Of a DNA stretch of 64,000 nucleotides, positions 1,504-23,021 are shown in pieces. The notes beneath the pieces are model-generated. The model was not told where the DNA came from. It did no database searches and worked only from the letters and a program-made list of their open reading frames with translations. The first letter of the stretch is position 1, and each line of letters begins with the position of its first letter. The position numbers were made by a program, and so were the translations under genes. Origin of the DNA: Candidatus Electrothrix scaldis (GTDB lineage Bacteria; Desulfobacterota; Desulfobulbia; Desulfobulbales; Desulfobulbaceae); contig CP138355.1 in NCBI GenBank assembly GCA_033584155.1, positions 248,001 through 312,000 on the forward strand, written 5' to 3'.

Positions 1504-2088
1504 TCAGGCCACCGGATGATATCGCCCCTCCCTCAACACCCGGATCAAATCAGCCCGGCTCTGGATTGGAACAGTAAACTGCGTGGGAACCTTGCCGAGT
1601 TCATCTAAGGTATGGGCATCGCTGCCCCCAACCGCACCGACCTGGTAACGCTCAGGCCAGTGGCGAACCTCCTGATTAGCCTCTGGCGTATTCCTGCCGT
1701 TTACGCCCTCAATAATCTGACAGAGTCCCTTTTCCAACAAGGAGATATCTGTGGATCTGCCGGGACGGCAGGGATGGGCAGCTATTGCGATACCGCCAGC
1801 CTTCCGCACGGTTGCCAGGACGGCCTCGGCAGGAAGTCCTATCGGAAGTCGTTCAAAAGGCCCAAAAAGGAGAAGGTCCCCGCCCTTGGTAGCGTATTCC
1901 ATGCCGACAAGAACACAGAGACCGTTTTCCTGCATGCCTTCTTTGAGCAGGCCAACAGCGCCCATAGTATCGTGGTCCGTGATGCAAACCCCGTCCAGCC
2001 CTTTGGCCTGGGCATTATTGAGGACTTGCTCCAGGGTCAGTTGACTACAGGATGAGAGCGTGGTATGAACATGAAGATCGAATTTCAT
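1504..2088 (-). CDS. PHP-domain phosphoesterase
   Basis: The protein starts MKFDLHVHTTLSSCS, the metal-binding HxH motif of the PHP superfamily. CITDHDT (residues about 35-41), GMEYAT and IAAHPCRPG further on, and a late GGSDAH motif, supply the other metal ligands. PHP proteins hydrolyse phosphoesters, for example histidinol phosphate, 3',5'-nucleotide phosphates or oligonucleotides. The substrate cannot be read from the sequence. It ends about 35 bases beyond the convergent ATPase gene. An in-frame ATG at 2106 would add six residues (MENIRG). I prefer 2088 because the family starts there. A possible promoter (TTGACA at 2124-2119, AATATT at 2100-2095, 18-base spacer) would put the transcript start near 2088, so translation could be nearly leaderless if that promoter is real. 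Confidence 0.85.
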   Translation of the reverse strand: MKFDLHVHTTLSSCSQLTLEQVLNNAQAKGLDGVCITDHDTMGAVGLLKEGMQENGLCVLVGMEYATKGGDLLLFGPFERLPIGLPAEAVLATVRKAGGIAIAAHPCRPGRSTDISLLEKGLCQIIEGVNGRNTPEANQEVRHWPERYQVGAVGGSDAHTLDELGKVPTQFTVPIQSRADLIRVLREGRYHPVA

Positions 2089-2180
2089 GCCCCGAATATT
2101 TTCCATTCTGCCGGGAATGTCAACCCGTTTCTCGGAAGGAAGAAGATCGCCTTGCCAACACCCCTTGAACCGGAAAGATT

Positions 2181-3527
2181 ATGAGCACGAGTCGAAGCGC
2201 AGAACGTTGTCTCCTTATCCTCCTTGATGGCCTGGGTGATCGTGCCTACCCAGAGCTGGGCAACCGCACTCCCTTGCAGGCTGCTCACACCCCGAACCTG
2301 AACGTCTTTGCTCAAAGTGGTTCCTGCGGTCTCCTCCATGCTGCCCGTCCCGGCATTGCCCTGCCTAGTGAAAACGCCCATTTTGCCCTATTCGGTTATC
2401 AGGAACAGGAATTCCCCGGTCGGGGGTTGTTTGAAGCTTTGGGGGCTGGATTGGATATCAGGCCTGGAGATATTGCCTTTCTGGTTCATTTCGGCGCGGC
2501 TGAGGTTCGGGAGCGCACCCTTATTCTGAGAAAACATCGCCCTCAAACCTCTGCGGAAGAAACAAGGGCCTTTATAGAGGCAATCTCCTCATATACCTGG
2601 TACGGGAAGGATGATGACGAAACAGAGCCTGTGCAGATTGATTATCTACCGACCAAGGGCTTAGATGGTATCCTCCGCCTACGCGGAAAAGGACTCAGCC
2701 GTCAGGTCACCGATACCAGCCCGCCTCAGCATGATCATCCGCTGCTCATGGCCCTGCCCTATCGCAAGACTGAGGATCCCATCGCAGCTCAACGCACCGC
2801 CGCTACTCTGAACAGCTATATAGCTTGGTCGCATACCACGCTGAGCAAGCATCCCCTGAACCTGAAACGACAGAAAAACAAACAGGAGCTCGTCAATATC
2901 CTGGTTACTCAACGCCCAGGGACTCTTGGACAGATTCAGCCCTTTGCAGAGCGTTGGGGAATCCAGGGAGCCTCCCTGTCTTCAGGCCTGATGTACTGGG
3001 GTCTGGCAAGCTATCTGGAGATGCGGGTGGAGAAGGTGAAGGATAGTGATGATCCGGGACGTGATTTGGCGGAGCGGCTTGCTCAAGCCGTCTCCCTTGG
3101 CAAGGAATACGAGTTTATTCATGTTCACACCAAGGCCCCGGACGCAGCAGCGCATACCAAGGATCCCAACAAAAAAGTCGCTGCCATCGAGTCTCTGGAC
3201 AAAGGTATCGGCCAAATGCTGCCGAACTTGCTTGATGGACGGACCGTTGTTATCATAACAGCTGATCATTCCACCCCCAGTGCCGGTCCTCAGATCCACT
3301 CGGGAGAACCGGTCCCCATTACCGTAGCCGGGCCGGGTATTCGCCGTGATCTGGTGACCGGGTTTGATGAGGTGCAATGTGCGCCCGGAGCTTTGGGCTG
3401 GGTACAGGGACGAGACCTCATGCCGATGGTGCTCAACTTTCTTGATCGGGCAAAGCTGGTCGGCTTGATGGATACCCCAGACGATCAACCCTATTGGCCG
3501 GGCAAAAGGGTATCATTTCAACTATAG
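2181..3527 (+). CDS. apgM: 2,3-bisphosphoglycerate-independent phosphoglycerate mutase, archaeal type
   Basis: This 448-residue alkaline-phosphatase-superfamily protein begins with CLLILLDGLGDRAYPEL, where the Asp binds metal. It then has the TPLQAAHTPNLN stretch and PSENAHFALFGY, where the Ser serves as the phospho-acceptor. Later metal ligands appear in HTKAPDAAAHTKDP and ITADHSTP, and the HSGEPVPI motif is typical of ApgM. The enzyme interconverts 3- and 2-phosphoglycerate in glycolysis and gluconeogenesis in the cytoplasm without the 2,3-BPG cofactor. It lies divergently from the PHP gene and 31 bases before an NMN adenylyltransferase-like gene in the same direction, so the two are probably co-transcribed. 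The length agrees with the usual ApgM size of slightly over 400 residues. Confidence 0.88.
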   Translation: MSTSRSAERCLLILLDGLGDRAYPELGNRTPLQAAHTPNLNVFAQSGSCGLLHAARPGIALPSENAHFALFGYQEQEFPGRGLFEALGAGLDIRPGDIAFLVHFGAAEVRERTLILRKHRPQTSAEETRAFIEAISSYTWYGKDDDETEPVQIDYLPTKGLDGILRLRGKGLSRQVTDTSPPQHDHPLLMALPYRKTEDPIAAQRTAATLNSYIAWSHTTLSKHPLNLKRQKNKQELVNILVTQRPGTLGQIQPFAERWGIQGASLSSGLMYWGLASYLEMRVEKVKDSDDPGRDLAERLAQAVSLGKEYEFIHVHTKAPDAAAHTKDPNKKVAAIESLDKGIGQMLPNLLDGRTVVIITADHSTPSAGPQIHSGEPVPITVAGPGIRRDLVTGFDEVQCAPGALGWVQGRDLMPMVLNFLDRAKLVGLMDTPDDQPYWPGKRVSFQL

Positions 3528-3558
3528 CCCACCTTCCTCACCATATCAGGAGAAAGCT

Positions 3559-4080
3559 ATGATTCCTACAGGCGTTATTCACGGTCGTTTTCAGATTCTC
3601 CATAATGATCACCTGAAATATCTCCTGGCTGGCAAGGCCAGATGCGAACACCTGGTGGTGGGCATCACCAACCCTGATCCCTGCCAAACCAAAGATGATG
3701 CAGCGGACCCGAAACGAAGCTCGGATCAGGCCAATCCCTTTACCTATTTCCAGCGCTACCAGATGATCCGTGCGGCTCTGACCCGAAGCGGCCTAGAGGA
3801 TAAGGAATTTTCCGTAGTCCCCTTTCCCATTAATTTCCCGGAACGCTATCGCTATTATGTTCCCCTGGATGCCACCTTCTTCCTGACGATTTATGATGAT
3901 TGGGGAGAGAGAAAGCTGGAGATGTTTCAGTCCCTGGGCCTGCGCACAGAGGTGCTTTGGCGCAGGACACCAGCCACCAAGGGCTTATCAGCCACTGATA
4001 TCCGGGCAAAGATGCGAGAGGGAGAGCCTTGGCTGCATCTTGTTCCACCCGGTGTTGCTGAGATTATTACGGGGCACTGA
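3559..4080 (+). CDS. Nicotinamide-nucleotide adenylyltransferase-like nucleotidyltransferase
   Basis: The 173-residue protein opens with GVIHGRFQILHNDHLKYL, the HxGH-like nucleotide-binding signature of the cytidylyltransferase fold. It closes with LSATDIRAKMREG, matching the ISSTxxR phosphate-binding motif. The VVGITNPDP segment and the short length fit archaeal-type NadM enzymes, which join NMN and ATP to form NAD. A pantetheine-phosphate or other adenylyltransferase activity cannot be excluded. A Shine-Dalgarno (CAGGAGAAAGCT) sits right before the ATG. It follows apgM by 31 bases and probably shares its transcript. Confidence 0.75.
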   Translation: MIPTGVIHGRFQILHNDHLKYLLAGKARCEHLVVGITNPDPCQTKDDAADPKRSSDQANPFTYFQRYQMIRAALTRSGLEDKEFSVVPFPINFPERYRYYVPLDATFFLTIYDDWGERKLEMFQSLGLRTEVLWRRTPATKGLSATDIRAKMREGEPWLHLVPPGVAEIITGH

Positions 4081-11665: not shown

Positions 11666-14458
11666 TCACACCTTTTCAATTCGCGTTTTGATGTACTTCA
11701 GTGGCGGGGTACCCGACCAGGTACAGGCTACATTGGGCGGCAGCAAAACATTGGTATTGAAGCCCCCAATCTGCGGATACTTCGGATCACCTTCCAGGCC
11801 GTATTTCCCACCAAATCCTCCAGCTGTTGCTAAAACCCCCTGCCGAATTCCCCAAGTCACCTGAGCCCTTGCTGTGGCTTCTCCCCAGGGAGAAGAAATC
11901 AGCACCTTATCCCCATCAGTAATATTGAGCTGCCGAGCATCCTGATAATTGATCCAGACCGGATTGGAGCCATATTTTTTCATCAAGGCCGCGTTCCAAT
12001 TGGTTGAACAATGCTCATGCTCGTTTATCCTGAAATACCCTATAATCATGGGGTATTTATGATCAGGCTGAAGCTCAGGCCAATCCACGAAGGGAGGAAT
12101 ATAGTCAGGCAGGGCATTGAGTCCGCTCTCTTTCGCCACTGGATTGATAAAATTATACTTCCCCGTCACCGTGTGCCCTGACGATCCATATCCAGCTGGC
12201 GGATTAAACGAACCCCACTCCCGGTACTTATAAAATTGCTGCGAATCCGTCACAAAATAGCCGCTTTCACGCAACAGATCCAACGTAATCCCCATACCTC
12301 GAAGCTGATTCTTCATATACTCTTCTTCAGTCTTCCAGGGAAAATACTCACCATAGCCAAGACGCTCCGCCAGCCCAGTAAAAATGTCCACCACAGATCG
12401 GGAATCGTACAGCGGAGCAATGGCCCTCTGCCCCAAAGAGAGAAAGGATTCATACATCCAATCTGATATCACCCGGCTCTGTTCAAGATAGGTACAATCC
12501 GGCAGGATGACATCACAAAGCTCTGTGGTATTGCTCATGAAGCAATCAATGGCGCAGGAAAACTCCAATTGCCGCATAGCATGACGGGTTGAGGGTTCGG
12601 AGCCATCGGACATAACGGGGTTACCGAAATAACAGAGCATGGCCTTGAGTCGCCCGGCCTGAACATCCTCTTCAAAATAGGCAGGAATCCATCCCTGCCA
12701 AAGTTTGCTGTTATTCAGCTTGAATTTTTCTGCATTATTGGGCGGACTTTTTTGCTCATCCCCCCAGGGAGAAGAGAGCTTCCGCTTGCTAACCAAGCTG
12801 GGGCCCCCAGGAGCGTCAAAGCTCCCAACAAGGGCGTTCAAGGCTTGAATAGCCTGGGTCGCATGCACAGCATTAGGGACCTGGGCCACACCAGTCCAGG
12901 ACAAGACCCCAACAGAGGGGGCCGCAGCGGCAAATTCCCTAGCCAGACGCTCAATGGTCGCAGCAGGCACCCCGCAAATACCTTCGGCCCAAAAAGGCGT
13001 ACGCAGAATGCCATCCTCCTCGCCAAGTAGGCGTCTCTTCAAGGCGGCAAAACCATAGCACCACTCCTTAACAAATTCCTTATCATAGAGCCCCTCCGTG
13101 ACTAACACATAGGCCATTGCCAGAGCCATTGCTCCGTCGGTTCCCGGAAGAATAGATATCCATTCAGTAGATGCTTCTGCGGTTTCGCTTTGGCGGGGAT
13201 CCACGGTGACCAGCTTGGCGCCCCGCTTTATAGCCTGCTTCAGCAAAGCCAGCTTCCGTTGCCCGGCAGAGGTTACCAATTCATTGATACCGAAAAGCAA
13301 AATGAATTCAGAATGGGCATAATCAATCCACGGACGTTTATCATTCAGGCAATGCTCATTGGCCATGCGGTTGGGATTATCACACATCTGGCGATGGGTG
13401 GTCTTATTCGGGGTGCCATAGGCTGCCATCACCGCATCATGGCACCAGCTATTAAAATCATTCCCCTGGTGAAACCCCACGGTTTTGGGATCAAAACTTT
13501 TCAGGCGGGCAGAAGTCAGATCCAGTGCTTCGTCCCACGACGCCTTTCTGAAGCGACCATTTTCCCGGATCAGAGGCGTCTTGAGACGATAGGCGGAATA
13601 GGTGTTTTTATGGGCATTGGCGCCCTTGATGCAGAGTCACCCACCGCCCTTAGGGTCACCAACCAAGCCACTGAGACCGGTGATCACCTGATCCTTCACC
13701 TTGACCTCCTGGCCGCAGAGTCCGGCGCAGATATAACAATGGGTCTTGATTGACTGAGTTCCTCTCTCAATTTCCTGGTGCTCTTCCCTTGGGGATAAGG
13801 TCCGTGACCAGGAGTTAAGATCCAGAACCATCAGGGCCTGAGCAAGCGGTTCCAGGTCTGTACTGTTCATGCCTGTTCGAGCCGCTTCAAGTACAGCTAG
13901 GGTCAAATCCGCCAAACTCTGGTACCATTCTGTCTGCGCGGCAGAATGCAGCATCTCACAAAAAGCACCTGCCCATCCCAGCTGCTGAACCAGAAAGTCT
14001 TGCTGCTGTTGTTCTGTTCCTTGCTGGCCAGCCAGATGGGCCATGAATTCCAGCTCAACCGCGATATGATCGTCCAGATCCGGGTAGGCAAGGTTCTTAT
14101 GCACTCCACTGTCATAATAAAGCTGGCGAACCTCAAAGACAGGCTTTTGCATAACCAAGGGTTCCTCGCTGACATGACAGGAGGCATAGGGAAACACAGG
14201 ATTCTTACCCGCATTAAGGAAGAGTTCCGCGTATTCATAACGGAGTTCGTTATACATATCCTGTGCTACGTTTCCTTGCAAAGAGGCCAGCAGATTACTC
14301 AAGCTGGAGCGGAACAGGGCCGATGAAGCCCCCCTAGCGGCTTCACGCAATCGGTCAAGGAATGCCTTTGCACGCATTGCCTCAATAAGGGCAAGCGAAA
14401 TTTCATCCTGATACAGGAGAGAAAGAAAACGGTATATAGCTGCGTTTACGTTATGCAT
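11666..14458 (-). CDS. TorD-domain/molybdopterin oxidoreductase fusion with an in-frame TGA
   Basis: Read on the minus strand from ATG 14458, a TorD/DmsD-like chaperone domain (about residues 1-200; PVFPYASCH and the DLDDHIAVELEFMAHL helix) runs into a Mo/W-bisMGD oxidoreductase. That part has a 4Fe-4S motif CYICAGLC at about 241-248 and LCIKG at 275. A TGA at 13639-13637 replaces residue 274, directly before LCIKG. The frame then stays open for 656 more codons, giving 930 in all. The later part has a GNDFNSWCHDA segment, a likely Mo-ligand Cys in RQMCDNPNR, and the C-terminal MopB fold (EHEHCSTNWNA, CTWSGTPPLKY). No signal peptide or partner subunit is present. The TGA is selenocysteine, a nonsense mutation or an error; the cluster still needs both halves. 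The substrate is unknown. Confidence 0.65.
13637..13639 (-). other. In-frame TGA codon inside the molybdopterin oxidoreductase gene
   Basis: The codon lies between GDPKGGG and LCIKG, next to the fourth cysteine of the 4Fe-4S motif. The position normally carries variable residues such as Arg, so a CGA to TGA transition would explain it. A modest hairpin (GGGC, 6-base loop, GCCC) begins 11 bases after the TGA, about where a bacterial SECIS element would lie. It is too weak to prove selenocysteine. Confidence 0.5.
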
Positions 14459-20799: not shown

Positions 20800-20930
20800 T
20801 ATAAATTAGGACAGAGACCCCGATTGACTTTTCCTGTTTATTTTCCGTTTCATTGGGCCACCTCTCCTCTTTTGCTCAATTTGTCAGGAGTTAATCGGGT
20901 CAGAGGGAGCCGAAGCTCCCGTCTGCCCAC

Positions 20931-20961
20931 AGAACCGTGCGTACGGGTCCGTACACGGCTC
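20931..20961 (-). ncRNA. Group II intron domain V
   Basis: The folded hairpin GAGCCGTGTACGG...CGTACGCACGGTTC has the catalytic AGC-type triad near its base and the expected size of about 34 bases. It lies just before domain VI and downstream of the maturase ORF, as required for a functional intron core. Confidence 0.8.
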
Positions 20962-20967
20962 CTCATG

Positions 20968-22293
20968 TTATACTCTTATCCATCGATGAAGAGGTAACCA
21001 GTGCGAATGCTTTTGATTTGACCGTATCTCTTGTCCCTTTTCCTGGATGAACCAAGCAACAGGGTATGCTTTTTCTAACGCAAAAGTATGAGATAAGGCC
21101 CATCGACCATTATTCGAAAATGCCGCGTTTGCTGCACTCTTTCGGCTCACCCCTCTTTTCTTCAGCTTCTTGAACAGATGGCGACGCCTTTTCTGTTGAT
21201 CCACCAGACGCGCACGGAGTCTTCTCCGTATATGCGCTTCGATTTTGCTGAGTTGAGATGGATATTCCGTCATCCGATAATACCCGGCCCAACCGACATA
21301 CCAACGGTTTATCCGCTTAATCGTTTTCTCCAGCGGCAGATACGTGCCTCGCGGTGTCAACTCTTTGACTTTCTGCATGGCCGTTTTCATCGATTTCGCT
21401 GAAATAGCCAGCGTTCCTTCAATGATAGTCATTCCGAGAAATTTTACCTCGCTGGAATGAGCGACCCTGCTCTTATCACGGTTGATCTTCAGCTTGAGTT
21501 TCTTTTCAATAAATTTACTGATACTGCTCATGACACGCTCTGCCGCTTTGGGCGAGCGAACATAAATATTGCAATCATCAGCAAAGCGGCAAAACTCAAG
21601 CCCCCGCCGTTCAAGCTCTTTATCCAGTTCATCAAGCACTACATTGCTCAACAGCGGACTCAGAGGGCTTCCCTGGGGAGTGCCTTTCTCACTGAGCATC
21701 ACATCACCGTCCTTCATTATCCCGCTCCGCAGAATCATGCCGATTAAACGGAGTACCCGTTTATCATCCACATGCCCTGAAAGAAGATAAATCAAACGAT
21801 CATGGTTCACTCGGTCGAAAAATTTCGACAAGTCGATGTCCACCACATACTCTTTCCCGCTCTTCACAATCCGCTGGCCGGATTCCACCGCCTGACGTTG
21901 ACTACGTCCGGGACGAAAACCAAAGCTGTGATCGGAAAATCCCGGATCAAGTATGGGCTCCAAAAGCTGTTTGATCGTCGCATGAACAACCCTGTCTTTT
22001 ACGCAGGGTACTCCAAGCAAACGAACGCCTGCACCTTTGCCCGGCTTGGGTATTTCAACCCGTCGCACCGGACTCGGTTTATACCTCCAGCCTGCAAGTT
22101 CTTTCGCAAGCTGTTCTATCTCTTCTTTCAGGCTGCTGCCGAATTCTTCGACCGTTACCCCGTCTACTCCCGGGGAGCCGCCGTTCTTCTTCACTGCCTT
22201 GAAACCTGCACGCAAAAATCGCACGTCGCAGAGTTTCTCAAAGAGACTTCTATCATCAACAAACAGTTCCCTTTGTCTCATTTCACCTTCCAT
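20968..22293 (-). CDS. ltrA: Group II intron reverse transcriptase/maturase
   Basis: This 441-residue protein contains RT blocks: KNGGSPGVDGVTVEEF, RPVRRVEIPKPGKG-like VRRVEIPKPGKG, GTPQGSPLSPLLSN, and RFADDCNIYV with the catalytic Asp pair (FADD). A maturase X domain follows near residues 310-400 (INRWYVGWAGYYRM). No HNH endonuclease domain is seen at the C-terminus. The protein assists splicing and would retrohome the intron by reverse transcription, priming without its own endonuclease. It appears intact. The start is ATG 22293, or 22281 (MRQREL). Confidence 0.9.
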   Translation of the reverse strand: MEGEMRQRELFVDDRSLFEKLCDVRFLRAGFKAVKKNGGSPGVDGVTVEEFGSSLKEEIEQLAKELAGWRYKPSPVRRVEIPKPGKGAGVRLLGVPCVKDRVVHATIKQLLEPILDPGFSDHSFGFRPGRSQRQAVESGQRIVKSGKEYVVDIDLSKFFDRVNHDRLIYLLSGHVDDKRVLRLIGMILRSGIMKDGDVMLSEKGTPQGSPLSPLLSNVVLDELDKELERRGLEFCRFADDCNIYVRSPKAAERVMSSISKFIEKKLKLKINRDKSRVAHSSEVKFLGMTIIEGTLAISAKSMKTAMQKVKELTPRGTYLPLEKTIKRINRWYVGWAGYYRMTEYPSQLSKIEAHIRRRLRARLVDQQKRRRHLFKKLKKRGVSRKSAANAAFSNNGRWALSHTFALEKAYPVAWFIQEKGQEIRSNQKHSHWLPLHRWIRV

Positions 22294-23021
22294 TTTGCGC
22301 TGTTATTTCATCACTCCGCACAGTCTCTGTTGTCATCGGAAGTATACGTATCCGCTTCAAAGACAGTTCCTAAGGCTGAGCTCATAACAACATCTATTCT
22401 GAGAGTCCGGTTCTGATAACATGTTCCGCCCTTCGGCTCCGGCATTGCTGCCACTTTCCGATAGTTTTACCCTCAGATACGTCACCGCATCCTCATCGGC
22501 TATCGATTTTACGCCTACTATGGCTTCATCTGAAAACCCTCTGTCCATAACAGAAACATTGCTGCTCCGCTTAGGGCACGGCTGTCGCAGTTACAACCGG
22601 CCCAGCATACAGACGGCTCTTCACCGGGTAAGATCACGAGCTTTCATTGCCCACCCACCTCCTCTACTCTACGGAATACGGAAAGGATATCGGGCTTCGG
22701 CAGTCGAGGTTGCCTCGCCCTTTCCGTAAAGCCTACCAGAGGTTCGCACCGAGCTTGGGTGACAAGTTTGATTCAGGCTTCCTTCAGATCCGTCATTGGC
22801 TCACAGTTACCGGGTTATCCCTCCTCGGGCAGCTCCTGTGAGTTTCTTCAGGCACCCTCGGAGTCTGCGCTTACCTGCCATCATCTACATATTCCCTCCT
22901 TTCAGGGGTTATGGCTGGACTTCCACCAGCTAGTTCGTGACCATGCCGGTCACACCTCTACAGCTCCGCGTAGAGCCGGGTGAGGAAGCAAGGGCGACAG
23001 GGCGCGTAGCTTTCTTTGATT

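Follow-up and report, generated by a model that had tools for sequence, protein, structure and literature searches.

Near its iron–sulfur ligands, a predicted molybdopterin oxidoreductase of Candidatus Electrothrix scaldis is interrupted by an in-frame TGA. Is this codon decoded, as selenocysteine (Sec) or otherwise, or does it mark a lost gene? We addressed this question in a window of 64,000 nucleotides (G000:C1:248001-312000), part of a single contig of 5,089,909 bases. The close relatives of the genome are Electrothrix and Desulfobulbaceae. Elsewhere in the window, group II intron RNA domains (Rfam RF00029, RF02001) were found at 20894-22806 on the minus strand.

The gene and its internal TGA

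Reading the TGA as an amino acid, the minus strand from 14458 to 11666 gave 930 residues with one internal TGA and a normal TGA stop at the end. This translation confirmed the sequence-only reading, which had described an otherwise uninterrupted frame of 930 codons. Four Pfam domains, Nitrate_red_del (TorD), Molybdop_Fe4S4, Molybdopterin, and Molydop_binding, follow each other in this order across the internal stop, and the region is therefore one gene (Table 1). PhsA obtained the top NCBIfam score for the fusion, although its 288 bits (NF012032) did not reach the PhsA/PsrA family cut-off of 694. The top PDB sequence match was the thiosulfate/polysulfide reductase 2vpw. The fusion has the same order of the Fe4S4 and MopB domains as PhsA/PsrA (PDB 2vpw), and the internal TGA aligns with an Arg in the GRLCPRG segment of 2vpw. 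It differs from this family in the N-terminal TorD fusion and in having no apparent Tat signal.

The TGA, codon 274, is flanked by GDPKGGG and LCIKG. The Fe–S cluster cysteines Cys242, Cys245, and Cys249 precede it, and Cys276 lies two codons past it. The earlier placement of three cluster cysteines ahead of the TGA and the fourth behind it was thus correct, but the fourth does not follow directly, as Leu275 intervenes. We also considered whether an internal restart divides the gene into two functional proteins. The downstream OR​F starts at GTG 13480, past the fourth Fe–S cysteine; therefore, a restart product could not carry the cluster.

Table 1. Features of the interrupted gene (window positions)
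Feature	Position	Strand	Basis
Broken gene of 930 codons plus stop: PhsA/PsrA-like molybdopterin oxidoreductase with a TorD-like chaperone domain fused to its N-terminus	11666..14458	-	Read-through translation, Pfam, NCBIfam, PDB match
Translated part: 273 residues with the TorD domain and three of the four Fe–S cysteines	13640..14458	-	ORF list
In-frame TGA, codon 274	13637..13639	-	CGA (Arg) in the nearest relative, Arg in all orthologs
Remainder, probably untranslated: fourth Fe–S cysteine, Mo-ligand Cys region, cofactor-binding domains	11666..13636	-	Pfam; purifying selection vs. the sister genome
Weak GGGC/GCCC hairpin, not a SECIS	13604..13636	-	Folding; similar stems in Arg-coding orthologs

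Arginine at codon 274 and the probable loss of the gene

A homolog search over 37 genomes, the window's own included, located orthologs in six further members of the genus, in one genome of the family, and in one of the order. In the sister genome G005, the nearest ortholog is intact, encodes an approximately 99% identical protein, and has the sense codon CGA (Arg) at position 274, one substitution away from TGA. In the 63 nt following this codon, it differs from the window gene at one base. The remaining orthologs specify Arg through CGG, CGC, AGA, AGG, or CGT, and Arg was also found at this position in G007. The retention of Arg through six different codons, CGA included, indicates that selection maintains the residue. 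The residue aligned with codon 274 in distant paralogs is Ala, Ser, Met, Lys, Thr, Asp, or Arg. Neither Cys nor TGA occurs there in the 40 other aligned loci, some of which represent the same genome twice. The sequence-only reading had left two origins for the TGA, Sec insertion and a CGA to TGA nonsense mutation. The exact CGA of the sister genome bears out the second, while the first is contradicted by orthologs that all have Arg and by a SECIS that was not found.

Several rows of distant relatives showed one TAA, and a recoding of this codon was considered. It was discarded on the basis of L022, the locus checked, where the TAA terminates a separate torD that lies just before the MopB gene. 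In this locus (1507-3972), the counterpart of the window fusion consists of an unfused, adjacent torD and MopB gene in one frame, the latter with a Tat-like signal.

The window gene and its G005 ortholog show 46 single-base differences besides the stop. Downstream of the stop, dN was 0.0026 and dS 0.053 (a ratio of about 0.05), and no additional lesions were seen. Constraint therefore acted on the catalytic half during most of the period after the two genomes separated, and the stop is a recent change. The low dN/dS and the absence of further lesions fit a recent event, but they would also be compatible with an error in sequencing or with a gene that is still translated in full. The upstream TorD half (14458-13640, minus strand) evolved faster than the catalytic half, with a dN/dS of about 0.37 and several changes clustered at codons 39-43. 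The ortholog in the draft genome of Ca. Electrothrix aarhusensis MCF (L005, 6001-8785) is broken in frame near residues 308 and 449, which is either a second, independent loss or a draft-assembly error.

In our assessment, a conserved gene for a TorD–molybdopterin oxidoreductase fusion was very probably inactivated recently in this strain of cable bacterium, when a single C-to-T transition changed CGA (Arg) to TGA. The transition would turn Arg codon 274 into a stop, and translation most likely ends after residue 273. The gene probably yields a 273-residue fragment with no complete Fe–S site, in which the chaperone domain would be left with an incomplete motif. A working molybdoenzyme would then not be made, save for possible low-level misreading of the UGA. 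We infer that the cells really carry the TGA and no longer make the protein. If this is true, the TorD–molybdoenzyme gene is dispensable in the enrichment culture, and one conserved molybdoenzyme gene can be flagged as probably lost in this strain for cable-bacterium biology.

The mutation most likely represents an ordinary kind of event. Like other nonsense-mutated pseudogenes, the gene carries one CGA-to-TGA transition that its intact sister copy lacks, with no other damage, and nothing unusual sets it apart from them. Among approximately 240 gene pairs (300 kb) compared between the window's genome and G005, there are a few other mid-gene nonsense differences without frame gaps, for example, CAG to TAG at 132/228 and GAG to TAG at 99/194. 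Such events thus form a background, to which one more adds nothing remarkable.

Accuracy of the base and readthrough

A base-calling or consensus error, with CGA as the true codon and an intact gene, is unlikely, but it is the rival that survives best. It would account for a single-base change with no other lesions and with strong purifying selection downstream. The closed genome of Ca. Electrothrix scaldis GW3-3 was assembled first from Nanopore reads, with Racon and Medaka, and the site adjoins GACTC, a possible methylation context. Against an error, the assembly was then polished with MiSeq reads, and a polymorphic rate of 0% was reported for this genome (PMC10926707). Illumina polishing and the lack of polymorphic sites make a wrong base less likely. 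The signature of systematic error was not seen either. Over 332 kb compared with the sister genome, C>T and T>C differences were balanced (1520 vs. 1500), as they were in the GGxGA context (12 vs. 9), and only nine differences fell on positions just before GANTC. With no asymmetry over this length, a systematic methylation-linked error in the GANTC context was rejected.

We consider it very improbable that the UGA is translated at a useful level, as Sec, Trp, or another residue, so that a functional fusion is still made. Readthrough by a near-cognate tRNA-Trp or an opal suppressor, frequent enough to keep the enzyme functional, is by itself a remote prospect. The stop codon UGA is leaky when the next base is C, as it is here. 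The low dN/dS downstream would also agree with readthrough, but a recent mutation accounts for the same value.

Selenocysteine in the genome and at codon 274

Sec insertion at codon 274, which would create a new Sec position beside a 4Fe–4S ligand, is hardly credible: the genome has the machinery and true Sec genes, and the frame is open and conserved past the TGA, but every ortholog has Arg, and the weak stem behind the codon is common to CGA, CGG, and AGA orthologs and unlike the hairpins of the genome's Sec genes. A false lead for a new Sec position is thereby removed. Sec machinery together with an in-frame TGA is insufficient evidence unless homologs and a SECIS agree.

The small, weak hairpin noticed at SECIS distance in the sequence-only reading does exist. 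It is, however, no more stable than chance: folding of a 66-nt segment gave z = -0.72, 47 of 200 shuffles were equally stable, and the 44 nt past the TGA fold into only a 4-bp stem. Comparable stems appear in Arg-coding orthologs, in line with what the coding of KGAN-AH would predict. At the Rfam gathering cut-offs, no SECIS family was detected in the window, which argues weakly against Sec. No SECIS specific to Sec-coding copies was found just 3' of codon 274. The z-score of the Sec hairpin in the genome's formate-dehydrogenase-like gene was likewise not extreme; therefore, the case is built on conservation and on the fact that non-Sec orthologs have the weak stem too, and not on energy alone.

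The search proposed in the sequence-only reading for selA, selB, selC, and selD found all four in the genome, with selA, selB, selD, and tRNA-Sec (selC) each above cut-off. A literature search for selenocysteine in Electrothrix returned no paper. Since both the machinery and true Sec genes exist, the Sec question hangs on the codon 274 site alone; the machinery serves genes other than the TorD–molybdoenzyme fusion. One of these is a 1,373-codon formate-dehydrogenase-like fusion (G000:C1:3030001-3036000) with a TGA in HCARL-U-HAPTV, which five further genomes of the genus retain; its Sec is presumably the Mo ligand. The window gene resembles Sec formate dehydrogenases of the FdhF/FdnG type in being a MopB enzyme with an in-frame TGA in a genome with Sec machinery. 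In those enzymes, however, Sec serves as the ligand of Mo within the MopB domain, whereas the TGA in the window stands at a conserved Arg with no SECIS. Another Sec gene is selD itself (G000:C1:3825501-3828500), which has an in-frame TGA and a strong downstream stem. Stems of approximately 8 bp follow the genuine Sec TGAs of both genes, and the stem of the formate-dehydrogenase-like fusion is maintained throughout the genus. The genome has a second selD-like gene at C1:3090502-3091443, which lacks a TGA.
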